A DNA stretch of 33,366 bases from Acidobacteriota bacterium (GCA_016210925.1 JACQTF010000012.1:1-33366); one strand, 5' to 3'. Shown: positions 19,491 to 33,006, counted from the stretch's first letter. Numbers and translations: made by a program. The notes: generated by a model not told the origin, from the sequence alone.

Positions 19491-20105
19491 TCATATCAGA
19501 TAAAAGAGCGTGAAGACGAAGACCCAAACCAGGTCCACAAAGTGCCAATAAAGCCCCGCGAGTTCCACGCCTTCCGCCGTGGAGCGTCCCAGAGCGTTCC
19601 GGAGGGCGACAATGGCCAGGATGATCACGCCGCTCAGCACGTGGGACCCATGAAAGCCCGTGATGAGGAAAAAGGCAGCGCCAAAATGCGGCACTCCCCA
19701 GGGATTCGTGTAAAGCCTGGCGCCTTCCCCGATGAGAGTCGTCCACTCATAAGCTTGCATCCCCAAGAAAGCCAGGCCCCCCAGGACCGTCAGGAGGACG
19801 AACCGCGTCGCCATCTTTCGGTTGCCCTGTCTCGCCGCTCCTACGGCGGTGGCCATGGTGGCGCTGCTGGAAATCAGGATGAAGGTCATCAGGGCGATGA
19901 ACTCCAGATGAAACACCTCGGATCGGTCCGGCCATTGCGGGCTGATCTGGCGCACAAAGCCGTATCCCGAAAGTAACCCCGCAAACAGCAAGGCATCCGT
20001 GATGATGAACAGCCACATCATCAGCTTGTTCCAGCCCACCGCGAAGGGCGAGACGCCACCCCCCCAGTGGGATTCCATCGTCTGGACCGAATGCTGTTGG
20101 CTCAT
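19491..20105 (-). CDS. Cytochrome c oxidase subunit III (second copy)
   Basis: A ~204-residue, five-helix heme-copper oxidase subunit III. It shows KLMMWLFIITDALLFAGLLS, the SSATMATAV helix, AYEWTTLIGEG, FFLITGFHGSHVLSGVII (the conserved FHG..H motif) and YWHFVDLVWVFVFTLFYL, the family C-terminus. ATG 20105 follows GGAGTGACG. It lies directly after another subunit III gene in the same operon. The two are clearly different sequences, so this is an old duplication rather than a recent one. Subunit III supports proton uptake and stability of subunit I. Confidence 0.93.
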   Translation of the reverse strand: MSQQHSVQTMESHWGGGVSPFAVGWNKLMMWLFIITDALLFAGLLSGYGFVRQISPQWPDRSEVFHLEFIALMTFILISSSATMATAVGAARQGNRKMATRFVLLTVLGGLAFLGMQAYEWTTLIGEGARLYTNPWGVPHFGAAFFLITGFHGSHVLSGVIILAIVALRNALGRSTAEGVELAGLYWHFVDLVWVFVFTLFYLI

Positions 20106-20119
20106 CGTCACTCCTTCTT

Positions 20120-20154
20120 CGAAGGTCAACGGTCAATCGTCATTGGTCATTTAA
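20120..20154. repeat. TTGACCN heptad repeat tract (copy 2)
   Basis: The gap between the two subunit III genes, read on the minus strand, is about four units of ATGACCA, ATGACGA, TTGACCG and TTGACCT type, matching the repeat at 11865-11906 and 22850-22895. Confidence 0.7.
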
Positions 20155-20166
20155 CAGAAAGTCCGG

Positions 20167-20811
20167 TTACCACACAAACAGCATGAGAAAAAGGTAGATC
20201 CAAAGCCCATCCACGAAATGCCAATAGGTGGCACACAGGGCCAGGGGATCATGATGCACCGGCGTGTAGTGAAAACGCCACGCCTGAACGAGGGCGTAGC
20301 ACAGCGCCAGGACCCCACCCAGCAGGTGCACCGCGTGCACGCCCGTGAGCACGAAGAAGAAGGAGCTGTGGGGGCTGGTGGGCAGGTACACTCCCTGGGC
20401 CGCAAGCTGCCGCCAGGCCAAAAGTTGTCCGGCGATAAAGGCCATCCCCAGCAAGGCGGTGACCACGAGCCAGCCCTTCAGGGCTTCGAGCCGCCAGCGC
20501 TTCAAAAAAGAGCGAGCGACCTCCAGGGTCACGCTGCTGGAGAGCAGCAGGGCGGTGTTGAACCACAGGAGGCTCGGGACCGCGATGGGTTGCCAATCGG
20601 AACTCGCCCGGCGCACGACGTACGCGCTGGTGAAACCGGCGAAGAGCATGGTAATCGTGGCCAGCAAGGCCCAGAGCCCGATTTCGCCGGTGTGGATCGG
20701 TAAGGCGCCCTCCGGGCTCCCGCCGCCCTCTCCGCCAAGACCGCCGGAGCCCTTGTCAAAGTCCACCCCCCCGCGTTCGAGCTTGGCTTTCTCTTTCGTC
20801 AGAACTTCCAT
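20167..20811 (-). CDS. Cytochrome c oxidase subunit III (first copy)
   Basis: A 214-residue subunit III with a Gly-rich cytoplasmic N-terminal extension of about 40 residues, then five helices: LWALLATITMLFAGFTSAYV, the SSSVTLEVARSFL helix, WLVVTALLGMAFIAGQLLAW, FFFVLTGVHAVHLLGGVLAL (the conserved G.HA.H motif) and YWHFVDGLWIYLFLMLFV. Start ATG 20811 is 31 nt after the ctaB stop. With the copy at 19491-20105 it gives the operon two divergent subunit III genes; they might serve alternative enzyme forms or a heterodimeric III. Confidence 0.92.
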   Translation of the reverse strand: MEVLTKEKAKLERGGVDFDKGSGGLGGEGGGSPEGALPIHTGEIGLWALLATITMLFAGFTSAYVVRRASSDWQPIAVPSLLWFNTALLLSSSVTLEVARSFLKRWRLEALKGWLVVTALLGMAFIAGQLLAWRQLAAQGVYLPTSPHSSFFFVLTGVHAVHLLGGVLALCYALVQAWRFHYTPVHHDPLALCATYWHFVDGLWIYLFLMLFVW

Positions 20812-20842
20812 CCGGGATCTTACCCCACGTCGAAAACGTTCC

Positions 20843-21793
20843 CTATTTTTCCCATCCGGACTTGTCCAGCACCATCAGGGCCAAGAGCAAGGGCAAGTAG
20901 AGCATCGCCACCGCCATCAACTGGCCTGCCGCGCGCCGGCACGGATCCAATTTCAGCCGGATGCCATAGGTCAACAGCATCAGACCCAGCACCAAAGCAC
21001 CGAACAAGTAAACGGTGCCGGTGAGGTCCATCAGCGTCAGCAACGGGTTGATCGCAAGCAATCCCAGGCAATAGCCAATCACCTGGCGACCGGTGCGCTG
21101 GCCGGTGGGGTCCACCACCGGCAGCACGCGAAAGTTCGCCCGGACGTAATCTTCCCGGTAGACCCACGCAATGGCCCAGAAGTGCGGAAACTGCCACAGA
21201 AACAAAATCCCAAACAGCACCGCCGACAAGAGGCCCAGCTCGTTTCGGGCGGCGGACCAGCCCATCAGCGTAGGGATGGCGCCCGGGAAGGCACCCACGA
21301 AGGTGCACCAGATGCTCCTGCGCTTCAGGGGCGTGTAGGCGAACACGTAACTGGCCAGGGCGAGGAAGGCCAGGGACCCTGTGAGGAAATTAACGGTGAA
21401 AATGAGTACCAGCAGCCCCAAGATCGACATCGAGATCGCAGCCAGCAAGGCTTCCTGGACGCCCATGCGCCCCGCTGGCAACGGGCGGCTGGCGGTGCGA
21501 CGCATCAGGGCATCCTGGTCGCGCTCGAAAACCTGGTTCAGGGCATTGGCACCCGCGATGACCAGAAACGTCCCGAGGCCGAAGCGCGCCAGCAAGCCCA
21601 GCTCCATTGCTCCCCGGGAAGCCAGCCAAAAGCCCACCACCGCCGTGGACAACACGAGAAGAGAAAGCCGTGCCTTCACCAACATCATGTAGTCGGTGAG
21701 CTTCCGCCTCACGATCCCCGGGCTGGCCACCAGCCTGTCGGTAGGCCAAGGCATCACCGTACTGGCCAGCCGAGCCTCCGCGACCTCTTTCAT
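20843..21793 (-). CDS. ctaB: Protoheme IX farnesyltransferase (heme O synthase)
   Basis: A 316-residue polytopic UbiA-family prenyltransferase that converts heme B to heme O, the precursor of heme A. The first Asp-rich motif is NQVFERDQDALMRRTASRPL and the second region YREDYVRANFRVLPVVDPTG; both are diagnostic for CtaB/CyoE. About nine membrane helices are predicted. Start ATG 21793 overlaps the CtaA stop by ATGA, so the two heme A pathway enzymes are translationally coupled. Confidence 0.95.
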   Translation of the reverse strand: MKEVAEARLASTVMPWPTDRLVASPGIVRRKLTDYMMLVKARLSLLVLSTAVVGFWLASRGAMELGLLARFGLGTFLVIAGANALNQVFERDQDALMRRTASRPLPAGRMGVQEALLAAISMSILGLLVLIFTVNFLTGSLAFLALASYVFAYTPLKRRSIWCTFVGAFPGAIPTLMGWSAARNELGLLSAVLFGILFLWQFPHFWAIAWVYREDYVRANFRVLPVVDPTGQRTGRQVIGYCLGLLAINPLLTLMDLTGTVYLFGALVLGLMLLTYGIRLKLDPCRRAAGQLMAVAMLYLPLLLALMVLDKSGWEK

Positions 21794-22848
21794 CTAGAAA
21801 CCCCCGTTTGCCGCAAGGCGAAGGCGAAGGAGGGCCTCGCCTCCTCCGCGGAAAGCCGGCGGGTCCAAAGCCACAGCACCACGCCACTGCCCAGCAGCAC
21901 AGCCCCAAAGGCAACATGGGCCACGGTGATGGCCACAGCCTTCTGGCTCCAAATGACGGACGCGCCCAGGACGACCTGCGCCGCAGTCAATCCCAGCATT
22001 CCTGCAGCCAGTTTCACAAGCCGTCGTTCGTCGCGATGGTTTCGAAAAATAGGCCAGGCCACGAAGAGAACCGCCACCGCCACTGCCAGTGCGCCTACGC
22101 GATGGGCAAAGTGAACGAGCACCTTCAGCCTCAACTCTTCATCGGCGATTGCAAAAGGTGCGTTCGGGTCGTTGGGCAGGTCGGCAAGGGGCGGAACCAG
22201 CCGTCCAAAGGAGAGTGGAAAGTCGGGGATCACAAGCCCGGCTCCCAGATGCCGCATCAGAGCTCCCAGCAGCAACTGGCCGAACAGCAGTACGATCAGC
22301 ACCGTCGCCCCGGACTTGAGCCGGTTGGAGATTCCCCTGGAGGATCCCGTCCCGGAAAGCCAGCGCGGCGAGGTCACCGTGGCCAGCGCAAAGGTCAGGC
22401 ACAAGACGATCTGCGCCAGGGAGGCATGGGCAACGGAGAAAGCAATCCGAACCGGAGTCACGTGGGACACTCCCGCGGCATTGAGCGCCACCTCCTGAAG
22501 CGTCTCGTCGGACACGACCAGGACCCGCAAGCCACCCAGCAGCGCCTGCGCCAACACGACCAGCACCGCGCCCAGCCCGAGCCATCGCACCCACGGCCGC
22601 GACTCGCGGCGCCAAAGCCAGAAGGCCAGGAGGGCGATCAGGAGACCCGTCACCCCCGCCACCAAACGGTGAGTGTGCTCGTACAGGACGCCACCCACCA
22701 TGGGCGGAAAGAAGCCGCCGTACGAGAGTGGCCAATCCGGCACCGCATCCCCCGAACCGGTGCTGGTCACAGCCGCTCCCGCAACGATCAGCCCTACCGT
22801 GGCCGCCGCTGTCAGAAGGGCAAAGCCATTTAGCCTCTCCATCGTCAT
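21790..22848 (-). CDS. ctaA: Heme A synthase
   Basis: A ~352-residue, eight-helix CtaA/COX15 protein that oxidises heme O to heme A. The paired heme-ligand histidines are visible as YEHTHRLVAG in the first half and VHFAHRVGALAV in the second, with SVAHASLAQIVLCL and TVAHVAFGAVLLG between and after. The early GSGDAVPDWPLSYG segment is typical. ATG 22848 is the first start, and an in-frame ATG follows two codons later. No Shine-Dalgarno is evident because the upstream DNA is a heptad-repeat tract reaching into the start codon. It lies 101 nt after cox1. Confidence 0.93.
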   Translation of the reverse strand: MTMERLNGFALLTAAATVGLIVAGAAVTSTGSGDAVPDWPLSYGGFFPPMVGGVLYEHTHRLVAGVTGLLIALLAFWLWRRESRPWVRWLGLGAVLVVLAQALLGGLRVLVVSDETLQEVALNAAGVSHVTPVRIAFSVAHASLAQIVLCLTFALATVTSPRWLSGTGSSRGISNRLKSGATVLIVLLFGQLLLGALMRHLGAGLVIPDFPLSFGRLVPPLADLPNDPNAPFAIADEELRLKVLVHFAHRVGALAVAVAVLFVAWPIFRNHRDERRLVKLAAGMLGLTAAQVVLGASVIWSQKAVAITVAHVAFGAVLLGSGVVLWLWTRRLSAEEARPSFAFALRQTGVSR

Positions 22849-22849
22849 T

Positions 22850-22895
22850 CGTCAATGGTCATTGGTCACTGGTCAATGGTCAATGGTCCGCGGTC
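22850..22895. repeat. GACCATT/TTGACCN heptad repeat tract (copy 3)
   Basis: The minus-strand leader of ctaA is a run of 7-bp units (GACCATT, GACCATT, GACCAGT, GACCAAT, GACCATT, GACGAAT), the same family as the tracts at 11865 and 20120. The tract runs right up to the ctaA start codon and takes the place of a recognisable ribosome binding site. Confidence 0.75.
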
Positions 22896-22917
22896 ACGCG
22901 GCTATCCGGGCCAATCA

Positions 22918-22948
22918 GCCTTCCAGTCTTCCAGCCTTCCAACTGTTC
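22918..22948. repeat. TGGAAGRC octamer repeat tract (copy 1)
   Basis: On the minus strand, right after the cox1 stop, lie tandem 8-bp units TGGAAGGC, TGGAAGAC, TGGAAGGC. The same unit recurs in opposed orientations at 27703-27786. Confidence 0.7.
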
Positions 22949-24727
22949 TCAGCCCTTCTTCCTCGCCTGCACCTCGGCGGGCGAAACCGACTGGGGGATG
23001 TAATCGTCCGAGACATCGGGCACGCTGTAGTCGTAAGGCCAGCGATGGACCGTGGGAAGCGGCCCCTCCCAGTTGCCGTGCGGAGGAGGCGACGCGGCGG
23101 TCCACTCCAACGTGTTGGCGTTCCAAGGATTTTGCTCTGCCTTTTTCCCCTTGTAAACGCTCCAGAAGAAGTTGAACAGGAACAGGAGCTGGGCAGCTCC
23201 CAGAACGAAGGCGCTGAGGGTGATGAAGACGTTCACGGGCTGCATGGGCGCCAGGTACTGGTACACGGTCGGGTCGTAGATGCGCCGCATCATCCCCCCG
23301 ATGCCCAAATAGTGCATGGGAAAGAAAGTCGAGTAGTAAGCGACAAAAGTCAGCCAGAAGTGGAGCTTGCCCAGCTTCGAGTTCATCATCCGCCCGAACA
23401 TCTTAGGAAACCAGTAATAGGTGGCAGCGAAGACGCCGAAGAGGCTGGCGCCCGCCATGATGAAATGGAAGTGGGCCACGACGAAATAGGTGTCGTGCAG
23501 GGGAATGTCCGCCGCCGCTGAGCCCAGGAAGATGCCGCTGAGCCCTCCGGTCACGAAGAGGGAAACGATGCCCAGGGCGAACAACATGGGCGCGGTGAAC
23601 TCAATCTTGGCGCGCCACAGCGTGGCCAGCCAGTTAAAGGTTTTGACGGCGGACGGGATGGCGATCACCAGCGTCGTTACCGTGAATGCCATGCCCAGAT
23701 AGGGACTCATCCCGCTCAGGAACATGTGGTGGCCCCACACGACGAAGCTCAATCCTCCAATGGCCACCATGGACAAAACCATCACAGGATAGCTGAAAAT
23801 CGGCCTGCGGCTGAAGGTGGCGATGATGTCGGAGGTGAAACCCATGGCAGGCAGCATCAAGATGTAAACTTCCGGGTGTCCCAGGAACCAGAAGAGGTGC
23901 TGCCAGAGAAGCGGAGTCCCCCCCTGATGGGCGAGCAATTTGTCCCCCACGTACATCCCGGCGGGCAGGAAAAAACTGGTTCCGAAATGGCGGTCAAACA
24001 AAAGCATCACCGCAGCAGCCGTCAGGGCTGGAAACGCCAGCAGGCCCAGGATGGCAACGAGGAACAGGGCCCAGACGGTCAGGGGAAGGCGCCTCATGGA
24101 CATGCCTTTGGTCCTGAGGTTGATGATGGTGGTGACGAAGTTCAGCCCCCCCATGGTGAACGAAGCAATGAAAAACACCATGCCGATGATCCAGAGGGTT
24201 TGCCCCATCCCCGAACCTGGGATCGCCTCTTGGACGGCGCTCAGGGGCGCATAGGAGGTCCACCCTGCTGCCGCCGCACCACCCTCCGCGAAAAAGGAGG
24301 AAAGCATGATGATGACGCCGGGAAGCACAGTCCAATAAGAGAGGGCGTTCAAGAACGGATACGCCATGTCGCGGGCGCCGATTTGCAACGGGATCAGGAA
24401 GTTACCGAAGCCGCTCACCGGAGCCAGGGAGAGGACGAAGAAGACCATCAGGGTGCCGTGCATGGTGAACAAGGAGATGTAGAACTCGGGCTTCATCACG
24501 CCAAATTCCATCCCCACCGGGAAGAGCTTGCCCAAAAGGGGCCACTCGTGGGCGGGCCACGCCAGATTCAACCGAACCAGCATGGCCAGAATCCCTGCCA
24601 CCACCCCCGTCAACATGGCGGTCACGTAATACTGAATCCCTATGACCTTGTGGTCGGTGCTGAAGATGTAGCGGCGGATGAAACTCTGAGGCGCGTGCGC
24701 AACATGGGGTTCATGAACCTTGGCCAT
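22949..24727 (-). CDS. ctaD: Cytochrome c oxidase subunit I (A1-type heme-copper oxidase)
   Basis: A ~592-residue catalytic subunit that reduces O2 at heme a3-CuB and pumps protons. The low-spin heme His is in LFTMHGTLMVFF, the CuB His with its cross-linked Tyr and the D-channel Glu are in FWFLGHPEVYILMLPAMG (the XGHPEVY pattern marks type A1), the CuB pair is in VWGHHMF, and heme ligands are in HDTYFVVAHFHFIMAG. About twelve helices are present. ATG 24727 (MAKVHEPH...) follows GGGAGACTGACG. It lies between cox2 and ctaA in the operon and ends with a charged tail after the last helix. Confidence 0.97.
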   Translation of the reverse strand: MAKVHEPHVAHAPQSFIRRYIFSTDHKVIGIQYYVTAMLTGVVAGILAMLVRLNLAWPAHEWPLLGKLFPVGMEFGVMKPEFYISLFTMHGTLMVFFVLSLAPVSGFGNFLIPLQIGARDMAYPFLNALSYWTVLPGVIIMLSSFFAEGGAAAAGWTSYAPLSAVQEAIPGSGMGQTLWIIGMVFFIASFTMGGLNFVTTIINLRTKGMSMRRLPLTVWALFLVAILGLLAFPALTAAAVMLLFDRHFGTSFFLPAGMYVGDKLLAHQGGTPLLWQHLFWFLGHPEVYILMLPAMGFTSDIIATFSRRPIFSYPVMVLSMVAIGGLSFVVWGHHMFLSGMSPYLGMAFTVTTLVIAIPSAVKTFNWLATLWRAKIEFTAPMLFALGIVSLFVTGGLSGIFLGSAAADIPLHDTYFVVAHFHFIMAGASLFGVFAATYYWFPKMFGRMMNSKLGKLHFWLTFVAYYSTFFPMHYLGIGGMMRRIYDPTVYQYLAPMQPVNVFITLSAFVLGAAQLLFLFNFFWSVYKGKKAEQNPWNANTLEWTAASPPPHGNWEGPLPTVHRWPYDYSVPDVSDDYIPQSVSPAEVQARKKG

Positions 24728-24796
24728 CGTCAGTCTCCCTTTTTCAGGCGGATCATGGCTTTGGGTCGCGGCAGCAGGCATCCGCCGACCGAAGTC

Positions 24797-25615
24797 TTAC
24801 GGGCCTTGCTCAGCGAGCCACTTCTCGAATCCCTCTTGCGACAGCACATGCAGCAGGCCCCGCATTTTGTAATGACCCAGGCCGCACAGCTCGGCGCAAG
24901 CGATCTCGTAATCCCCTTCCTTCGTCGGAACGAACCAATTTTCCACGGTCATTCCGGGCACGGTGTCCTGTTTGACCCGGAAGTTGGGCAAGAAGAAGCT
25001 GTGAAGCATGTCCTTGGATCGCAGGCGGACCCGAGCGGGCCGGTCAACGGGAAGATAAAGCTGGTTGACCAGGACGATATCATCCTTGGACGCAGGGTCC
25101 TGTTCGTCCAGCCCCAGGCGGTTGTCCGGGCTAAAGAGCTTGGGATCGGTGCGACCGAACGCGCCATCCTTGCCAGGATAGCGGCTGGTCCATTCAAACT
25201 GCTGCCCGGTCACCTCCACCGGGAGCGCATCGTCGGGTGGAGCGCTGAACACCCGGGTCCACAGCCGGAGCCCCACCAGGATCAGGATGGACAGGATCAC
25301 GGTGGTGCCCAGGGTCCAGGTAATCTCCAGGGGCCGGCTCTCGTGCCAATAGGCGGCACGAGCCACGCTCCGGTCGCTGAAGCGCCACAAGAAGTACCCC
25401 AACATCGCCTGGACCACCACGAAGGCAATGCCGGTGACGATCAGGATGGCGAAGAAGAGCCCATCGATGCCCCCCCGATCCGACGCCAGGGTGGGAAGCC
25501 ACCACGCTCGCTTGAAGAACAGCGCCGTCGTCACGATCACCATGAGCCAGATCAACAGAGCGAGAAACAACCCCTCTCCGGACCTTCCCGACTTCACCGT
25601 GGCTTTCTCTTCCAT
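24797..25615 (-). CDS. ctaC: Cytochrome c oxidase subunit II (CuA)
   Basis: A ~272-residue subunit II that takes electrons from cytochrome c. Two membrane helices come first (LFLALLIWLMVIVTTALFF, GLFFAILIVTGIAFVVVQAM), then the periplasmic cupredoxin domain with the CuA loop CAELCGLGHYKM and the preceding His in DMLHSFFLPNFRVKQD. The aromatic electron-entry patch is probably around TGQQFEWTSRYPG. No heme c motif is fused, so an external cytochrome c is needed. ATG 25615 lies after GGAGAGAGGACACGGAG. Confidence 0.96.
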   Translation of the reverse strand: MEEKATVKSGRSGEGLFLALLIWLMVIVTTALFFKRAWWLPTLASDRGGIDGLFFAILIVTGIAFVVVQAMLGYFLWRFSDRSVARAAYWHESRPLEITWTLGTTVILSILILVGLRLWTRVFSAPPDDALPVEVTGQQFEWTSRYPGKDGAFGRTDPKLFSPDNRLGLDEQDPASKDDIVLVNQLYLPVDRPARVRLRSKDMLHSFFLPNFRVKQDTVPGMTVENWFVPTKEGDYEIACAELCGLGHYKMRGLLHVLSQEGFEKWLAEQGP

Positions 25616-25746
25616 CTCCGTGTCCTCTCTCCAGCCCCCAGCAGGCGCCCTGCCACACCGCCCTCGCGGCCCTGTGCCTTCAGGGCGTTCCAAGAGATTC
25701 CCCCGGGAACGATCCTGGATTTCCTGCGGGAGGGCTTCCTGTGGGA

Positions 25747-26523
25747 TCAGCCTTTAAACGTGAATGAAATTTCCTTGGTCTCTTTCGGCCCCACGGTCAC
25801 GTTCTGGGTGGCGGTCCCGTATCGCTCGTGCCAGGCCTCGATCACGTACTGGCCCGGGGGGAGAGTCTTCAGCTGGAAGGTTCCGTCGGGACCCGTCACG
25901 CTGTGATAGGGATGGTCCAAAACCCCCACATAGGCACCCATCCACGAGTGGACGTCGCACTTGATTCTCACCATCACCTCGGGGGCTCGGAACTCTCGAG
26001 TGACCGCGATCCCCTCTTTTCCCGGCATCCCGAAGTTGAACCCATTGCGCTTCTCGGACACCGCGTGGATGTTATGCAACACTCCCACGTCGCTGTTGAG
26101 GATCTTGAACGGCTGTCCCACCTGGATCCCCACCACGTGAGGGTGATACCAGCAGCTTCTCTGATCGAAGACCACCACCTCTTTCGGCGCCGGCAATTTC
26201 TGCTGGAGCCCTTCCTTCACGTACACGAAAACGTTCCGCAGAGTCTTGTCGTCGTTGACGATCACGGTCTCGGTATGAACGGGCTCCTGTTGGGTCTTCG
26301 TGTGGCAGACGGCTTCCGTGGGCATCTCCACCTTCTTCATTTCCGGAGCCGTCCCTTCGAAATGGACCTTGCCGGTGATGGTGGCTGCCGTGGCCTCATC
26401 GATTTTCGGCGCCGCCACTTCCTCCGCCGCAGGCGCCTTTTCCGCCTCCGGTTCCTTTTTTGCGCAACCGGCCGCTATCAGAAGGAGGGCGGCTACAAAA
26501 AGCGCGAGATGACTGTTTTTCAT
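25747..26523 (-). CDS. Cupredoxin-like lipoprotein with carboxypeptidase-regulatory C-terminus
   Basis: A 258-residue lipoprotein: signal peptide ending LLLIAAGCAKKE with the lipobox Cys at residue 20, then an Ala/Glu-rich linker. The central domain is cupredoxin-like with candidate copper ligands in DVGVLHNIHAV (His) and RIKCDVHSWMGAYVG (Cys-x2-His-x2-Met). The last ~45 residues form a carboxypeptidase-regulatory-like beta sandwich (GPDGTFQLKTLPPGQYVIEA). It heads the oxidase operon, 131 nt before cox2. An anchored electron carrier or copper donor to CuA is the likely role (inference). GGAGAGACCC precedes the ATG. Confidence 0.8.
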   Translation of the reverse strand: MKNSHLALFVAALLLIAAGCAKKEPEAEKAPAAEEVAAPKIDEATAATITGKVHFEGTAPEMKKVEMPTEAVCHTKTQQEPVHTETVIVNDDKTLRNVFVYVKEGLQQKLPAPKEVVVFDQRSCWYHPHVVGIQVGQPFKILNSDVGVLHNIHAVSEKRNGFNFGMPGKEGIAVTREFRAPEVMVRIKCDVHSWMGAYVGVLDHPYHSVTGPDGTFQLKTLPPGQYVIEAWHERYGTATQNVTVGPKETKEISFTFKG

Positions 26524-26718: not shown

Positions 26719-26778
26719 TGAAAGCTCCCGCGCGCGTGAAGGGTCGCGCAGGCTGTTCAGGGTTTCGGGAAGGTGCGC

Positions 26779-27693
26779 ATGCTGAAAGCGTACGCCAAGA
26801 TCGTCCTCTTCGTTCTCCTGATCATCGCTATTTTTATTTACGTGGGTGAGACCATCACCTCCATCTCCGGGGAAGGAAAGGGCGCAGCCCTGTCCGGCGA
26901 GGTCACCCCGGAGGCCGGCGAAGCCCTTTTCTGGGGGAAGGGCAAGTGCTCCACCTGTCACAGCATCGGCGGCCGGGGCAGCGCCATCCGGTGTCCCAAT
27001 CTGGGCACCAACGAGCAGTTCCCGGATCCGGTGGCGGTGCGGGCGGCCACCCGGAAGCCGGGCATGGGCGCCGTGGAATACATGGTGGAATCCATGTACA
27101 ATCCCAACGCCTTCGTCGTTGCGGGATTCCCAAAGGGTTTGATGACGCCCATCAACCAGCCGCCCATCTCGCTCTCCGATGACGAGATCGCCGCCATCAC
27201 CCTGTACCTGCTGAGTCAGTCCGGCGAGGTGGGGGCCGACCAGGCGTCTGCCCTGGCCCGGGCCCAGGCTCCCTTCAAGTCAGGAAAGGTCCAGGTGGCC
27301 CAGGCGACGGAGGCGTTCAAGCTTCCACCGGGCGACGCCATCATGGGCAAGCGGGACTTCGTCCAGCTCAAGTGTTACCAGTGCCATACGATCGAGGGGG
27401 TCCAGTTCCCCGCCGCGGATGTAGGCGGGATCGGGCCGGACCTCACGGGGATCGGCGCCATCCAGTCGGCCAGCTACCTCGCTGAGTCCATCCTGGACCC
27501 CAGTGCGGTGGTGGTGGCGGGCCAGGGTTTCGCGGGAGAGGACGGTCGCTCCAAAATGCCCGAGTACCACGACGTGATGACCCTGCGCCAGATGCTGGAC
27601 GTCACCGCCTACTTGCTGAGCCTGAAGGAAGCGCCCGCCATGACGCCTGCAGCCACCACCGCCGGTGCAAAGGCCCCGGCGTCGGGACAATAA
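26779..27693 (+). CDS. Membrane-anchored diheme cytochrome c
   Basis: A ~304-residue protein with an N-terminal helix (KIVLFVLLIIAIFIYVGETI) followed by two class I cytochrome c domains. The first heme site is CSTCH with GFPKGLMTP as its Met region; the second is CYQCH with GIGPDLTGIG before it and a KMPEYH axial Met candidate. The C-terminus is Ala/Thr/Pro-rich and disordered. It is divergent from the oxidase operon, and subunit II there has no heme of its own, so this is a plausible electron donor to CuA or a link from a bc1/alternative complex III. I use ATG 26779 (after GGGAAGG) rather than GTG 26773. Confidence 0.92.
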   Translation: MLKAYAKIVLFVLLIIAIFIYVGETITSISGEGKGAALSGEVTPEAGEALFWGKGKCSTCHSIGGRGSAIRCPNLGTNEQFPDPVAVRAATRKPGMGAVEYMVESMYNPNAFVVAGFPKGLMTPINQPPISLSDDEIAAITLYLLSQSGEVGADQASALARAQAPFKSGKVQVAQATEAFKLPPGDAIMGKRDFVQLKCYQCHTIEGVQFPAADVGGIGPDLTGIGAIQSASYLAESILDPSAVVVAGQGFAGEDGRSKMPEYHDVMTLRQMLDVTAYLLSLKEAPAMTPAATTAGAKAPASGQ

Positions 27694-27702
27694 CCCAATG
27701 GA

Positions 27703-27786
27703 ACATCGGAAGACTGGAAGGCTGGAATAATGGAAGACTGGAAAAGGGCGCCTGCCAGCCTTCCCATCTTCCATTCTTCCAGTCTG
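27703..27786. repeat. TGGAAGRC repeats in opposed orientation (copy 2)
   Basis: The gap between the cytochrome c and Usp/PCP_red genes holds TGGAAGAC/TGGAAGGC units first on the plus strand (27705-27744), then inverted (CCAGCCTTCC, TCTTCCAGTC, 27756-27784). The two halves could fold into a long imperfect hairpin just before the Usp ribosome binding site. Confidence 0.65.
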
Positions 27787-27797
27787 ATGAGGTGAAA

Positions 27798-29708
27798 ATG
27801 TACAGGAAAATCTACGTACCCCTGGATAACTCCGATCATTCCAACGCCTGCGTCGAGCTGGCCATCGCACTGGCGAAGCAGTACGGCTCCCAGGTGGTGG
27901 GCAGCCACGTCTATGCCGCCAAGATGCACGACTATCGCTTCAAGCAAATGGAATTCACCCTTCCTGAAGAGTACCAGGACGAGAAGGAGTTGGAGCGGCA
28001 GCGCAAGATCCACGACAGCCTCATCTCCATGGGCCTCAAGCTGATCTCCGATTCGTATCTGGACGTGATGGTGCGCCGCTGCCAGGAGGAAGGTCTGCCT
28101 TTCCAGGGAAAGACCTTTGATGGAAAGAATTACCAGCTCCTGGTGGAAGACATCCAGAACAGCGACTACGACCTGGTGGTCATGGGGGCCCTGGGCATCG
28201 GCGCCGTCAAGGACAGCCTCCTGGGCTCAGTCTGCGAGCGGGTGGTGCGGAGGGTCAAGGTGGACACGCTGGTCGTGAAAAACACCCAACCCCTGGCGGA
28301 GCACAACGGGAGTTGCATCCTGGTGGCGGTGGACGGCAGCCCCCAATCCTTCGCCGGATTGAAGACGGCGCTGGAGCTGGGCAAGCACTGGAACCGGCCC
28401 GTGGAGGCCGTGGGCGTGTACGATCCGTATCTGCACTATGCCATGTTCAACAGCATTGTCGGAGTGCTTTCCGACCAGGCCTCCAAGGTCTTCCGATTCA
28501 AGGAACAGGAGAAGTTGCACGAGGAGATCATCGACACGGGGCTGGCCAAGATCTACCAGTCCCATCTGGAAGTGGCCCAGCGAGTGGCCCAGGACGACGG
28601 GGTAGCTCTGAAGGTGACCCTCATGGACGGGAAGGCGTTCGACAAGATCCTGCTGCACGCCCGAAGGACGCAGCCCTGGCTGTTGGTGGTGGGCCGCATC
28701 GGCGTCCACAGCGACGCCAACATGGACATCGGCAGCAACGCCGAGAACCTGCTGCGGCTGGCGCCGTGCAACGTCCTGCTGTCGAGCCGAACCTACGTGC
28801 CGGCCCTGGACTACAAGGCGGAGACCAGCATCGCCTGGACCGAAGAGGCCAACGCCCGCATGAAGCGGGTGCCCTCCTTCGTCCGGGGTGTGGCTCGCAC
28901 GGCCATCCTGCGGTTCGCCATCGAGCGCGGCCATTCCATCATCTCCTCCAGCGTCATCGACGATGCCCTCTCCACCATCCTGCCCGAGCCCGCCTTGAAG
29001 GCCATGGGCATCGCCGCCAAGAAGGTCGCCTTGGAAAAGGCCAGAGAAATGGAGGTGACCACTTACGTCTGCGGCCAGTGCGGATACACGGCCAGGGAGC
29101 AATGCCCCGTTCAGTGCCCCGTGTGTGGTTCCTCATCGGAGCGGTTCCAGATGCTGGACAAGTCCATGATCGAGACCCTTGCCGCCCAGGAGGGCGAGAC
29201 CACCGAGGAGCAGACCTTCGACGGGGTGGCCCTCAAATGGACCGAAGAAGCCAAGAAATCCCTCTGGATCTTGAAGGACGCCTATCTGCGCCGGCGCGCC
29301 AAGGCCCGCATCGAGAAGACCGCCCGGGTGCAAAAGATCGGCACCATCACCCGGGACTTCGTCCTGCCCATCATCCGGGAAACGGCGGGCATCCTCTCGA
29401 AGCTGGAAGACGGCAGCCCCGGCGACGGGCATCTCACCTGGACGGACGAGGCCGCCGCCCGCCTGGACAAGGTGCCCAGCGGCTTCATGCGCGACATGAC
29501 CCGGGATCGGATCGAGCAGATCGCCCGGGAAAAGGGCGCGACCGCCATCGACCTGGCCCTGGTGGAAGAAGGAATCGAACAGGGCAAGAAGATGATGACC
29601 GAGATGATCTCCAACTACGCTCAGGGCGGTCAGGCCCAGGAGCAAATCCACCAGGCGGCCTCCCGCGGCGTGCCCAATGAGATCGAAAACCTAGAGACAG
29701 ACTACTGA
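27798..29708 (+). CDS. Tandem Usp - PCP_red - rubredoxin-like - PCP_red fusion protein
   Basis: A 636-residue multidomain protein. Residues 1-160 and 170-330 are two Usp domains, each with the ATP-binding G-x2-G-x9-G-S motif intact (GALGIGAVKDSLLGS at 130; GRIGVHSDANMDIGS at 299). Residues ~344-390 form a PCP_red-like module (AWTEEANARMKRVPSFVRG), named after the C-terminus of light-independent protochlorophyllide reductase subunits. At 425-443 lies a rubredoxin-like knuckle (CGQC...CPVC). Two further PCP_red-like modules follow at ~480-530 (KWTEEAKKSL) and ~546-595 (LTWTDEAAARLDKVP). ATG 27798 follows GATGAGGTG. No membrane segment. It converges on an operon with another PCP_red protein. Function unknown; a nucleotide- and metal-sensing scaffold is plausible. 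Confidence 0.9.
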   Translation: MYRKIYVPLDNSDHSNACVELAIALAKQYGSQVVGSHVYAAKMHDYRFKQMEFTLPEEYQDEKELERQRKIHDSLISMGLKLISDSYLDVMVRRCQEEGLPFQGKTFDGKNYQLLVEDIQNSDYDLVVMGALGIGAVKDSLLGSVCERVVRRVKVDTLVVKNTQPLAEHNGSCILVAVDGSPQSFAGLKTALELGKHWNRPVEAVGVYDPYLHYAMFNSIVGVLSDQASKVFRFKEQEKLHEEIIDTGLAKIYQSHLEVAQRVAQDDGVALKVTLMDGKAFDKILLHARRTQPWLLVVGRIGVHSDANMDIGSNAENLLRLAPCNVLLSSRTYVPALDYKAETSIAWTEEANARMKRVPSFVRGVARTAILRFAIERGHSIISSSVIDDALSTILPEPALKAMGIAAKKVALEKAREMEVTTYVCGQCGYTAREQCPVQCPVCGSSSERFQMLDKSMIETLAAQEGETTEEQTFDGVALKWTEEAKKSLWILKDAYLRRRAKARIEKTARVQKIGTITRDFVLPIIRETAGILSKLEDGSPGDGHLTWTDEAAARLDKVPSGFMRDMTRDRIEQIAREKGATAIDLALVEEGIEQGKKMMTEMISNYAQGGQAQEQIHQAASRGVPNEIENLETDY

Positions 29709-29731
29709 ATAGCTTTCAGTAGTCTGTCCCT
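29693..29731. terminator. Bidirectional hairpin between convergent genes
   Basis: GACAGACTACTGAA (29696-29709) is perfectly inverted at 29715-29728 around the 5-nt loop TAGCT, with near-complete pairing beyond. Each arm encodes the last residues Thr-Asp-Tyr and the TGA of one of the two convergent genes (29708 plus, 29716 minus). A short T-run follows only on the minus-strand side, so termination is probable but not classic. Confidence 0.6.
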
Positions 29732-30093
29732 AAAATGTGGCGGATCCGCGCAGCCACGATGGTTGGTTTGAAGGGCTTGAGGATGCAATCGAGGGCGCCG
29801 AGTTCCTTGGCACGAGGGACGTCGCCTTCGCGGAATTGTCCCACCAGCATCAGGACGGGAATCTGGCGAACGGAACCGTCCGGGTCTGCCTTGAGCTGAC
29901 TCAAAACTTCAAGGCCATCCTGGTCGTCCAGCGTCAAGTCCAGCAAGACCAGATCCGGCTTTTCCCCGCGTATGGCTGCAAGTCCCTCCGCCCCCGTGGG
30001 CTTGCTGATGACCCGAAACCCTTCCCGCTGCATCTTATCCACCAGGATCCGTGCAATCATCGGTTCATCTTCCACGATGCAGATGGAATGCAT
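29716..30093 (-). CDS. Single-domain response regulator
   Basis: A 125-residue CheY-like receiver. The acidic pocket is VEDEP (residues 7-11), the phospho-acceptor Asp52 is in VLLDLTL and the conserved Lys is in CILKPFKP. The usual Thr/Ser switch residue is replaced in MLVGQF. There is no output domain, so it would signal by protein contact. It is the last gene of the Mrp operon, 12 nt after the diiron protein, with GGGAG before the ATG. No histidine kinase is encoded nearby except the unrelated fragment at 7.9 kb. Confidence 0.88.
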   Translation of the reverse strand: MHSICIVEDEPMIARILVDKMQREGFRVISKPTGAEGLAAIRGEKPDLVLLDLTLDDQDGLEVLSQLKADPDGSVRQIPVLMLVGQFREGDVPRAKELGALDCILKPFKPTIVAARIRHILGTDY

Positions 30094-30105
30094 GGGCTCT
30101 CCCGT

Positions 30106-30792
30106 TTACTCCCCGAAGACCGAGTGCTCGAGGGCGTCCCAGAAGCGTCGGCGCAACCGGAGGGACAGGAGGGCTCCCTCCCGAGTCCGCTGCTGGCCTT
30201 CCGCCTCGCCCGCCTGGCGGGCGATCAGCGTCTCAAAAATGCGGGCGTGTTGCACGTCCTGAGCCACGTGCAACGTGAAGTACTCCAGCTGAGGTTCTGA
30301 TAGGGAGGTGTGGGCCCGCAAACCGGCCAGAAGATAGTTGAACATGAGGGGAATGGAAAACTCGTGAGCGGGCCCGATCGCTCCCAATCCCACCAGGAAG
30401 TCCATCTCCCGGGTCAAAAGCAGGTGTCCTTCGATAAACGCCGCCACCTCGGGGAGCAAGCGTACTTTCCCCCAATCCTCCTCCAGCAGGCCCAGGCCGC
30501 TCAAGAACCGTCGGTACAAGGCAGGATGGCTGTGAAAAATGCTCTCCCGGCCAAACTCGTCGTCAAAAATGACCCGGAAGAAGCGTTGCGCCTCCGCGTC
30601 GGGAATCCTGGGAAGCAGGTTCGTCATGTAGTTTACGAAGACTTTCACGAGCTGGTAGTGCTGCAGCCCAAAGGCTCGGATCTGCCCCAGGCGCAGCGGC
30701 CCGCGGGCGAATCTTTGCAGGAAGGGATGGTGCGTTGCAGGATGGCTCTGGATTTCCTCCCGGAGTTGCTCGAGGAAGACGTCAGCCTCCAT
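30106..30792 (-). CDS. Heme-oxygenase-like diiron (HDO) family protein
   Basis: A 228-residue all-helical protein of the TenA/PqqC/CADD-like, iron-containing redox enzyme group. The HDO ligand pattern is visible: Glu79/Glu83 and His87/His89 in DDEFGRESIFHSHP, Glu144 in PAHEFSIP, and the HxxxDxxH triad in LHVAQDVQHARIF (His165, Asp169, His172). Such enzymes use a diiron centre with O2 to oxidise or cleave substrates. The start overlaps the stop of the zinc-ribbon/PCP_red gene by 11 nt, so the two are coupled. The substrate cannot be read from sequence; oxidation of a tetrapyrrole or sulfur-containing intermediate, or O2 sensing, would fit the neighbours (inference). Confidence 0.82.
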   Translation of the reverse strand: MEADVFLEQLREEIQSHPATHHPFLQRFARGPLRLGQIRAFGLQHYQLVKVFVNYMTNLLPRIPDAEAQRFFRVIFDDEFGRESIFHSHPALYRRFLSGLGLLEEDWGKVRLLPEVAAFIEGHLLLTREMDFLVGLGAIGPAHEFSIPLMFNYLLAGLRAHTSLSEPQLEYFTLHVAQDVQHARIFETLIARQAGEAEGQQRTREGALLSLRLRRRFWDALEHSVFGE

Positions 30793-31282
30793 CTTCCGGT
30801 CCCATGAAGGTTCCCTTGGCGAGATCCATCAGTTTCTCATTCACCTCGGACTGACCACGGTCTCGCGCCATTTGCTCGATCGCTCGTTTCGCCATCGGCC
30901 GAACGAAAGCAGGGATGTTCTCCAGCCTTTGGCGGGCCTCGTCCGTCCAGGGCAGTTTCGTGGCGTCGGCGTTCTCCGGTCCCAACAGAGCGCCAAAAGG
31001 ACATCCCCCCGTCGAACCGGTTTCTGCGCCCGGGACTGGAGAGGCACCCTTGTCTTCCTTCAGCATCTCGCGTGTGAGCTGCATAGGGGCTGCCCCGGCA
31101 TCCTGCCCTCCGATCTTGACCCCCAGGGCCTGAACCAGGCTGGTCTCCCCCGGGTTCGTCACCATGGCCATCTTGTGGCCGCACCGGGGGCAGGCAAAAA
31201 CAACCCCCCAAGATCGCTCTGCCACTTCTTCCAACTTCTGAAGGCCCATGTAGCTTTCGCAGGCGATGCAAAGGAACTTCAT
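30782..31282 (-). CDS. Zinc-ribbon / PCP_red-domain protein
   Basis: A 166-residue protein with an N-terminal zinc-ribbon-like pair of knuckles (CIAC at residues 5-8; CPRCGHK at 31-37), a variable middle with CPFGALLG, and a C-terminal PCP_red module (LPWTDEARQRLENIPAFVRP, then MAKRAIEQMARDRGQSEVNE). The same module occurs three times in the convergent Usp fusion at 27798-29708, so both probably act in one process. Start ATG 31282 overlaps the Mrp stop (ATGA), and its end overlaps the diiron gene. Outside chlorophyll synthesis the PCP_red module has no settled function. Confidence 0.85.
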   Translation of the reverse strand: MKFLCIACESYMGLQKLEEVAERSWGVVFACPRCGHKMAMVTNPGETSLVQALGVKIGGQDAGAAPMQLTREMLKEDKGASPVPGAETGSTGGCPFGALLGPENADATKLPWTDEARQRLENIPAFVRPMAKRAIEQMARDRGQSEVNEKLMDLAKGTFMGPEDGG

Positions 31283-32214
31283 GGTTCTCCCCTCAAGATT
31301 TTTTCAGCCATCTCCCGTTTCAAGTCCAGCTGCTTTTGGATTCCTTCCGCCAGGGAGTCGAACCGCCGGACCATGGGATGTTCAGGGTCCATCAGAGGCA
31401 CGCCCCGATCGCAGGCGCGGCTGATTTCTCCATCCCAGGGGATCCGCCCCAGGAAGGGGACCTCCGGAAAGGAAGAAGGACCGGCCGCATCGCCCTCCAA
31501 CGGGTTCAGGTTCGCCCCGCAGCGGTGGCAAATGCTCCCGCTCATATTCTCGATCAGGCCGATCAAAGGAATGCCCAAATCCCTCACGTACTGGATGGAT
31601 CGCCCCACCACGGCCCTGGCCACGCTCGAGGGCGTGGTGACCACCACAGCGCCGTCCAGCTCCGGCACCAGGCTGACGAGAACGGGCGGCTTGTCCGCTG
31701 CGGCTCCCGGAGGCAGATCGGCGAAAAGGAAATCCAGCTCACCCCAGACGACATCCGCCAGCAACTCGCGAATCGTCCCCATTTCCAGCGCCCCCAGCCA
31801 AATGGGAGAAAGATCCATCGGAGGGGCCCACCGCACCGGGGCTCCCTCGGCAAGAAAAAAGGCCATGGAAGCCACCTTCAAGTCCAGCGGGCCCCGGGGA
31901 GGGATCACGCCTTCCTCCGTGAAGGCGAAGCGCTGGTCGCTCATCCCCAGCATGTGGGGAATGCAGGGCCCGTTCAGGTCCACGTCCAGGATGCCTACCC
32001 GGGCCCCCTTTCTGGCGAAGGCCAGGGCCAGGTTGGCCGTCACCATGCTCTTGCCCACACCTCCCTTTCCACTTAACACCACGATCTTTCTTTTCACCGG
32101 GCCCATGCGCAGCTTGACCGCCAGGCTTTGATCCACCAGCTGCTTCGTCACCTGGGAATCTTCCCGGCCGCGGAGCTTGTGCAAGATGCCTTTGAGATCG
32201 ATATCCTCGGGCAT
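31279..32214 (-). CDS. Mrp/NBP35 (ApbC)-family Fe-S cluster carrier ATPase
   Basis: A ~311-residue P-loop protein of the MinD/Mrp class. The deviant Walker A is LSGKGGVGKSMVTANLALAF, switch regions follow (DVDLNGPCIPHMLG, FADLPPG), and the conserved GLIENMSGSICHRCG contains the CxxC that bridges an Fe-S cluster between two subunits. The family carries and transfers Fe-S clusters in the cytosol. ATG 32214 is the first of its operon. No Shine-Dalgarno is present, and a TATAAT ends 7 nt before the ATG, so the message is probably leaderless. It is coupled by ATGA to the zinc-ribbon/PCP_red gene, suggesting that it loads clusters into that pathway. Confidence 0.92.
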   Translation of the reverse strand: MPEDIDLKGILHKLRGREDSQVTKQLVDQSLAVKLRMGPVKRKIVVLSGKGGVGKSMVTANLALAFARKGARVGILDVDLNGPCIPHMLGMSDQRFAFTEEGVIPPRGPLDLKVASMAFFLAEGAPVRWAPPMDLSPIWLGALEMGTIRELLADVVWGELDFLFADLPPGAAADKPPVLVSLVPELDGAVVVTTPSSVARAVVGRSIQYVRDLGIPLIGLIENMSGSICHRCGANLNPLEGDAAGPSSFPEVPFLGRIPWDGEISRACDRGVPLMDPEHPMVRRFDSLAEGIQKQLDLKREMAEKILRGEP

Positions 32215-32350: not shown

Positions 32351-32375
32351 AGTTTAAAGGAAGGAGGAAATTGTG

Positions 32376-32627
32376 ATGCCGGTTATACAGTTGTCCGCCA
32401 AGGGCCAAATTCTCATTCCAAAGGTGCTTCGAAGAAAATTAGGCCTCAAACCGGGTGCCCGGGTCCAATTGGTCGAACAGGAAGGCCAACTGGTTGTCCG
32501 GCCGGTCCCATCGGACCCGATCGCTGCCGCCACCGGATTTCTCAAAGGCCGCTTTTCTTTCACCAAGGACCTGCAACGAGAGCACCGGGAAGAGGCACGC
32601 CGTGACCGAAGCACTCGTCCTCGATAG
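32376..32627 (+). CDS. AbrB/MazE-type (SpoVT-AbrB) antitoxin
   Basis: An 83-residue protein with the SpoVT-AbrB swapped-hairpin motif: IQLSAKGQILIPKVLRRKLG then KPGARVQLVEQEGQLVVRPV. The second half is a basic tail with EHREEARRDR, a common toxin-contacting form. The ATG at 32376 follows GGAGGAAATTGTG (a GTG at 32373 is in frame). The gene overlaps the PIN toxin by 26 nt in another frame, as expected for a coupled pair. Confidence 0.85.
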   Translation: MPVIQLSAKGQILIPKVLRRKLGLKPGARVQLVEQEGQLVVRPVPSDPIAAATGFLKGRFSFTKDLQREHREEARRDRSTRPR

Positions 32628-33006
32628 CTTCTCTTTGGTCAGCCTCTTCCACCGAGAACCCGGCTGGGAACGCGTCCAGAAGGCTCTATACGACCAGGAG
32701 AAAGCACAGACCCGGGCCCTCTTGAATTGGATCAACTGGGGAGAATTTTTCTACATTGTGAAGCGCCGGGTCGGTCCCACGCGAGCGGCCGAAGCCCTGG
32801 ATCTGCTCGAACAGCTTCCCATCGAACTGGTACCTGTGGATCAGGCCCTGGTGCGGGCGGCAGCTGAAATCAAAGGCGATCACGCCGTTTCCTATGCCGA
32901 TGCCTTCTGCATTGCCACCGCCCAACGGCACCAGGCTGCGGTCCTGACCAACGATCCCGAATTCCACGCCGTCGAGCACCTGGTTCCCATCCAGTGGCTG
33001 ACGTAG
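32602..33006 (+). CDS. VapC-like PIN-domain toxin
   Basis: A 134-residue PIN protein with acidic residues in EALVLDSFSLVSLFHREPG (Asp), INWGEFFYIVKRR (Glu), SYADAFCIATAQRH (Asp) and LTNDPEFHAVEHL (Asp). I use GTG 32602, about 7 nt after GAAGAGG; longer starts add residues from inside the antitoxin gene. It pairs with the AbrB-type antitoxin just upstream. VapC proteins are ribonucleases that arrest growth when unneutralised. Confidence 0.85.
   Translation: MTEALVLDSFSLVSLFHREPGWERVQKALYDQEKAQTRALLNWINWGEFFYIVKRRVGPTRAAEALDLLEQLPIELVPVDQALVRAAAEIKGDHAVSYADAFCIATAQRHQAAVLTNDPEFHAVEHLVPIQWLT

Follow-up and report, generated by a model that had tools for sequence, protein, structure and literature searches.

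A conserved PCP_red gene set that accompanies a bd-like protein in Acidobacteriota and other phyla, and its probable part in cofactor maturation

What do PCP_red domains do in proteins that are not chlorophyll enzymes? The question is raised by positions 27,798 to 32,214 of a 33,366-nucleotide stretch of DNA from an Acidobacteriota bacterium (GCA_016210925.1, JACQTF010000012.1:1-33366), a whole stretch that we call the window, in which two of five adjacent genes encode PCP_red proteins. A preliminary description of this locus, made from the sequence, had proposed a redox or metallocofactor maturation or stress system beside the oxidase. We find that three of the five genes, those for Usp-PCP, Mrp and ZnPCP, form a conserved core with a fourth, encoded elsewhere in the genome, for a radical-SAM/SPASM protein with a C-terminal PCP_red domain (rSAM-PCP). 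A functional link of this module to a bd-like complex is strongly supported. On account of its enzyme types we assign the module a role in cofactor maturation: it probably builds or delivers a haem or metal cofactor of that complex.

The PCP_red set and the bd-like complex

All five open reading frames are present in the window, as follows, and Pfam confirms the composition first described, with Usp (universal stress protein), PCP_red, rubredoxin-like knuckle, Mrp, ZnPCP, haem-oxygenase-like diiron protein (HDO) and receiver.

27798..29708, plus strand: Usp-PCP, with ribosome-binding site GAGGTGAAAATG
Parts of Usp-PCP: Usp at residues 1-161 and about 172-330; PCP_red at residues 347-390 (nt 28836-28967); rubredoxin-like knuckle at residues 423-450; degenerate PCP_red-like unit at residues about 478-537; second PCP_red at residues 548-591 (nt 29439-29570)
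29716..30093, minus strand: stand-alone CheY-like receiver (Response_reg), a local addition
30106..30792, minus strand: HDO, CADD-like (Haem_oxygenas_2), a local addition
30782..31282, minus strand: ZnPCP, with a zinc ribbon, Cys-Pro-Phe at residues 94-96 and a C-terminal PCP_red (nt 30815-30949)
31279..32214, minus strand: Mrp/NUBPL-type P-loop Fe-S carrier ATPase, CxxC at C229 and C232

The neighbourhood recurs across phyla, which the preliminary description had named as its support. A Usp-PCP alignment scanned against bacterial and archaeal genomes gave 225 relatives, and the best 80 neighbourhoods were read; these come mainly from Poribacteria, Rokubacteria, Methylomirabilota and Rhodothermales/Bacteroidota, with single records from Calditrichia and Planctomycetota. 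The Mrp-ZnPCP gene order is kept in most loci. Seven loci of Rhodothermales, Bacteroidota and Calditrichia (L036, L089, L092, L097, L098, L103 and L104) hold the complete order on one strand: bd-like protein, two cytochromes c, EB_dh-cytochrome c, rSAM-PCP, Usp-PCP, Mrp and ZnPCP. Genomes of Poribacteria and Rokubacteria also contain the bd-like gene, which there lies beyond the 10-kb flank, often with a haem-copper oxidase between or nearby.

The proposed tie to an oxidase holds in the form of this bd-like protein. Its profile tells it clearly apart from canonical CydA, which scores at most 96 bits where the bd-like proteins reach hundreds or more. The protein is encoded in 31 of the 32 genomes with Usp-PCP, the lone exception being a 1.7-Mb assembly. 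Among 397 genomes of the window's own phylum, PCP_red occurs in 37 of the 38 with a strong bd-like match and in 5 of the 359 without one (counts 37/1/5/354), with a Fisher p of about 2e-45 that is inflated by phylogenetic relatedness; at genus level the count is 19 of 20 (p about 6e-23). The single bd-like genome without PCP_red is 77% complete. Of the five PCP_red genomes without the bd-like protein, three have a BchB-sized open reading frame and are probably Chloracidobacterium, with BchB demonstrated in one of them; the other two are single cases, weak or isolated. A second phylum (395 genomes) has the bd-like protein in 13 genomes, all 13 of which carry three to six PCP_red matches; its remaining PCP_red genomes mostly have BchB-sized frames, as expected of green sulphur bacteria. 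Some green-sulphur-like genomes encode, besides the BchB-sized frame, another PCP_red protein, about 210-300 residues long (e.g. G479:C9:70008-70142).

The rest of the set lies outside the window. Of five PCP_red matches in the genome, the window accounts for three; the other two are on another contig, C23. There a CydA-like protein, a cytochrome c, a protein of the cytochrome c/EB_dh (haem b) type and a small protein with PCP_red are encoded in one run, and rSAM-PCP about 8 kb beyond it. The preliminary description thus had Usp-PCP, Mrp and ZnPCP right and missed rSAM-PCP and the bd-like operon, which are key to the set. The cytochrome c gene directly upstream of Usp-PCP (26773-27693) is a homologue of the cytochrome c gene located after the bd-like gene in complete clusters; the cluster therefore seems to be divided between two contigs here. 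Only the N-terminal part of the bd-like protein aligns with solved CydA, and the SFEMG glutamate is hydrophobic in its profile. A full-length CydA fold with the quinol-binding region is not seen in its sequence, and it does not appear to be a canonical cytochrome bd quinol oxidase.

The best NCBIfam models for rSAM-PCP are AhbD (367 bits) and NirJ2 (340 bits), neither of which reaches its equivalog cut-off (500), with PqqE far lower (124 bits); TIGR04053 and peptide-maturase models also match at lower scores. Its radical-SAM cluster cysteines and its SPASM cysteines are conserved. By closest profile, CxxxCxxC motif and SPASM cysteines, rSAM-PCP belongs to the AhbD/NirJ superfamily of radical-SAM/SPASM tetrapyrrole enzymes.

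Domains, conserved residues and local setting

The PCP_red segments pass profile matching (PF08369), a test to which the preliminary description had tied its case, and are members of that family both by profile above the gathering score and by fold. Usp-PCP matches Usp (7e-40) and PCP_red (5e-30) over two stretches each, ZnPCP matches PCP_red (2e-17), and AlphaFold (mean pLDDT 78 for Usp-PCP) together with a domain scan of relatives points out the third, degenerate PCP_red-like unit. The knuckle scores 9e-6 against RUBY_RBDX, 1 bit short of the cut-off. The glycines of the Usp nucleotide-binding loop are invariant in both domains of all 84 Usp-PCP proteins, and the motifs MHDYRFKQMEFTLPE and DPYLHY are strongly conserved.

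A sequence search of the PDB with the ZnPCP profile matches DPOR subunit B and the nuclear magnetic resonance structures of PCP_red; these structures (2kru and 2l09) are also the top fold matches of the ZnPCP AlphaFold model. Because the overall confidence of this model is low (pTM 0.38), its PCP_red and ribbon parts alone were used. The zinc ribbon C-x2-C...C-x2-C (C5, C8, C31 and C34) is kept throughout, or almost throughout, the 58 ZnPCP members, and the Cys-Pro-Phe motif in 58 of 58. Haem binding by Cys-Pro motifs is known in some proteins, and by this analogy the motif may be a lead toward haem binding. The window Mrp matches the NUBPL/ParA profile (4e-64), falls short of the equivalog cut-off of MrpORP and has the P-loop and CxxC that are conserved in its family; on these sequence features it is a member of the Mrp/NUBPL Fe-S carriers.

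HDO and the receiver are real genes of the window, with matches to Haem_oxygenas_2 (6e-25) and Response_reg (1e-21). The former profile would place HDO among the HDO/CADD diiron proteins; its TIGR04305 score is 81 bits against a cut-off of 200. Of 37 module genomes, 10 have HDO (PF14518), which adjoins ZnPCP in the window's own genome only, and the 80 Usp-PCP neighbourhoods yielded no relative of either HDO or the receiver. Because of this distribution we regard both as local additions and reject them as core members, contrary to their earlier inclusion in the set.

The remaining features of the window are these.

29692..29732: hairpin with 18-nt arms, terminator-like, between the convergent Usp-PCP and receiver genes
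26773..27693, plus strand: cytochrome c protein with two Cytochrom_C stretches
25747..26523, minus strand: secreted carboxypeptidase-regulatory-like protein, which recurs near Usp-PCP in several phyla
19491..25693, minus strand: haem-copper oxidase cluster with COX2, COX1, CtaA, UbiA-type CtaB and two COX3

The hairpin is real, with a z score of about -6.5 for its RNA fold, and resembles a terminator on the minus strand; the two PCP_red genes do not directly face each other across it, since it sits between Usp-PCP and the receiver. The overlaps said to couple ZnPCP to its neighbours are also present: an ATGA with Mrp and 11 nt with HDO, followed by a gap of 12 nt between HDO and the receiver. 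A haem-copper oxidase lies near the module in many other genomes, as it does upstream of Usp-PCP here. Scans of the window found no RNA family in Rfam and no more promoter sites than in shuffled sequences.

Several further observations concern the surroundings of these genes. Short repeats and inverted repeats (GGAAGACTGGAA units) lie at 27697-27785, between the cytochrome c and Usp-PCP genes. In eight or nine Rhodothermales, Bacteroidota and Calditrichia loci a protein of 124-134 residues and unknown family is encoded directly before Usp-PCP (L104:9591-9995, L036:9588-9962). Downstream of ZnPCP, several phyla encode a weakly CopD-like membrane protein (L025:13779-14285, L104:13408-13860, L030:14994-15491), and one of these membrane proteins matches UPF0093 (HemJ family) at E 0.004. 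On C23, directly after the bd-like/EB_dh genes, the small protein at L006:5822-6493 has an N-terminal hydrophobic stretch and PCP_red, with no relative seen in other loci beyond the PCP_red domain itself; an AbiEi/AbiEii type IV toxin-antitoxin pair (L006:12009-13688) lies between the C23 PCP_red genes. In the window, two small open reading frames at 32373-33006 resemble, by eye only, an AbrB-type antitoxin and a PIN-domain toxin (a VapBC-like pair). At the contig end (33220-33330) the 38-nt repeat CCTTTCAGTCCCCTCTTCAACGGGGGGGAATAGCTCAC occurs twice, identical, with a spacing of 73 nt, and is probably the edge of a CRISPR array.

Candidate roles of the module

Several known pathways were compared with the module in 24 of its genomes. 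Ferrochelatase (HemH) is present in 23, none has AhbD (TIGR04545) at or above the cut-off of 500, none has siroheme decarboxylase (PF17805; four positive controls), and none has BchN above cut-off (465 bits in a Chloracidobacterium-like positive control). We reject ordinary haem b supply by AhbD on the presence of ferrochelatase and the missed AhbD cut-off, and the haem d1/siroheme pathway on the absence of siroheme decarboxylase. As these genomes have ferrochelatase and lack siroheme decarboxylase, true AhbD and DPOR, rSAM-PCP matches none of the known pathways to haem, haem d1 or chlorophyll in those tested, and we regard it as an orphan relative of haem-modifying enzymes. That the set occurs without BchN, in line with the earlier expectation, also bears on the thought that its PCP_red proteins, members of a family named after protochlorophyllide reductase, are remnants of a (bacterio)chlorophyll pathway. 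This is refuted for the genomes tested and has next to no chance of being correct, the same searches having found a true BchB/BchN genome in the phylum and no BchN above cut-off in the 24 module genomes.

We tentatively favour, with slightly less than even confidence, the explanation that Usp-PCP, ZnPCP, Mrp and rSAM-PCP are a dedicated assembly module of the bd-like/cytochrome c/haem-b membrane complex, which probably handles a tetrapyrrole. The choice of a tetrapyrrole is indirect and follows from three facts that converge: rSAM-PCP is related to AhbD and NirJ, PCP_red originates in an enzyme that acts on a tetrapyrrole, and the client complex is rich in haem. In such a module, Mrp would charge the [4Fe-4S] clusters of the radical-SAM enzyme, which by analogy to AhbD and NirJ would change side chains on an iron tetrapyrrole drawn from the ordinary haem pathway. 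The PCP_red domains might hold the tetrapyrrole or hand it on, or else bring the partners together by docking; ZnPCP may bind haem via Cys-Pro-Phe, the tandem Usp could act as a nucleotide-gated carrier or checkpoint, and the product would be handed to the bd-like subunit. That the product is a previously unknown modified haem (e.g. chlorin-type or propionate-altered), made from ordinary haem by an orphan AhbD/NirJ-type radical-SAM enzyme with PCP_red carriers and inserted into the bd-like oxidase, is a bolder proposal that we consider unlikely.

Several points weigh against assembly around a tetrapyrrole. Because rSAM-PCP scores below the equivalog cut-offs of both AhbD and NirJ2 (500), its substrate need not be a tetrapyrrole. 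The chemistry of the module is inferred, and contact of PCP_red with the pigment in DPOR is putative. The haem-copper oxidase beside the module in many genomes could be a second client, and in this genome the bd-like operon is on a different contig from Usp-PCP. Co-occurrence is linkage, not mechanism, and its p-values carry the inflation noted above, with the genus-level count agreeing nonetheless.

These points leave some room for other readings. PCP_red could be a mere docking domain, with the radical-SAM enzyme modifying a polypeptide or installing a protein-derived cofactor in a subunit of the bd-like complex, Usp-PCP and ZnPCP recruiting or regulating it, and no free tetrapyrrole involved. 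The fusion of PCP_red to four unrelated partners, with up to three copies per chain and each position forming roughly its own group, would suit docking, as would the SPASM domain and the lower-scoring matches to TIGR04053 and peptide maturases. The top-scoring models are nevertheless two haem enzymes, AhbD and NirJ2, which outscore every named peptide maturase by a wide margin, the other known setting of PCP_red is a tetrapyrrole enzyme, and no recurrent small precursor-peptide gene was noted, no search having been aimed at one; we think this reading possible, if rather unlikely. A regulatory role appears more doubtful still. Tandem Usp domains sensing ATP and zinc ribbons sensing redox state could adjust the oxidases under oxygen limitation, and the invariant nucleotide-loop glycines, the position of the module beside two oxidase types and the rise of Usp proteins at low O2 in Nitrospira marina (PMC8115632) are consistent with this. 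Sensing would, however, leave the AhbD/NirJ-like enzyme and the dedicated Mrp, with their assembly-type functions, unexplained, and the conserved set does not include the receiver. A metallocofactor or stress pathway that includes HDO and the receiver draws on the contiguity of the four minus-strand genes, with their overlaps and short gap. It is very improbable, given that 27 of 37 module genomes lack HDO, that its gene adjoins ZnPCP in no other genome, and that no relative of either protein was found in the 80 neighbourhoods; the stress system once suggested is thus not the best reading.

Known systems and significance

The assembly module that we favour shares parts with several known systems. 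Its PCP_red domain is common, by sequence and fold, to DPOR subunit B (BchB/ChlB, with a C-terminal PCP_red) and the stand-alone Asr4154 (2l09). Unlike DPOR, the set has no nitrogenase-like core or BchN partner, and its PCP_red occurs in fusions with Usp, zinc-ribbon, radical-SAM and membrane proteins. rSAM-PCP matches the AhbD/NirJ enzymes over its full length and differs from them in its extra C-terminal PCP_red, its scores and its genomic context of ordinary ferrochelatase without siroheme decarboxylase. Mrp resembles Mrp/ApbC/NUBPL carriers in P-loop, CxxC and profile, whereas its linkage to a PCP_red set is distinct, as is a conserved N-terminal extension of the family to which the window protein is a poor match. 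Over about its first 330 residues Usp-PCP shares the fold of the tandem universal stress proteins TTHA0350 and Rv2623, to which it adds the PCP_red and rubredoxin-like C-terminal half and its two conserved motifs. No published description of the module was found in the open-access literature searched, so that an earlier account elsewhere is possible, and a search of that literature for PF08369/PCP_red outside DPOR yielded nothing useful.

The client complex has better-known relatives. In the bd-like_3/alternative NxrC cluster of Nitrospira, Nitrospina and anammox bacteria, as here, genes for cytochromes c and for a cytochrome c/haem-b (EB_dh) fusion come after a CydA-like gene (PMC6606698, PMC3578206), and the Nitrospina authors mention a putative zinc-finger protein in it (PMC3578206). 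The likeness to OR-N type CydAA' (PMC10839748) lies in gene order and an N-terminal CydA match only. The passages on this cluster make no mention of the PCP_red set; they call the complex of nitrite oxidisers and anammox bacteria conserved, highly expressed and enigmatic, with its role and cofactors unresolved (PMC6606698, PMC3578206, PMC10839748).

An accessory set that nearly always accompanies relatives of this bd-like protein offers a handle on the content and assembly of the complex, and would open a little-understood respiratory enzyme to experiment. If the proposed role is true, PCP_red would gain a role outside chlorophyll synthesis, and an uncharacterised branch of haem-modifying radical-SAM enzymes would be revealed.

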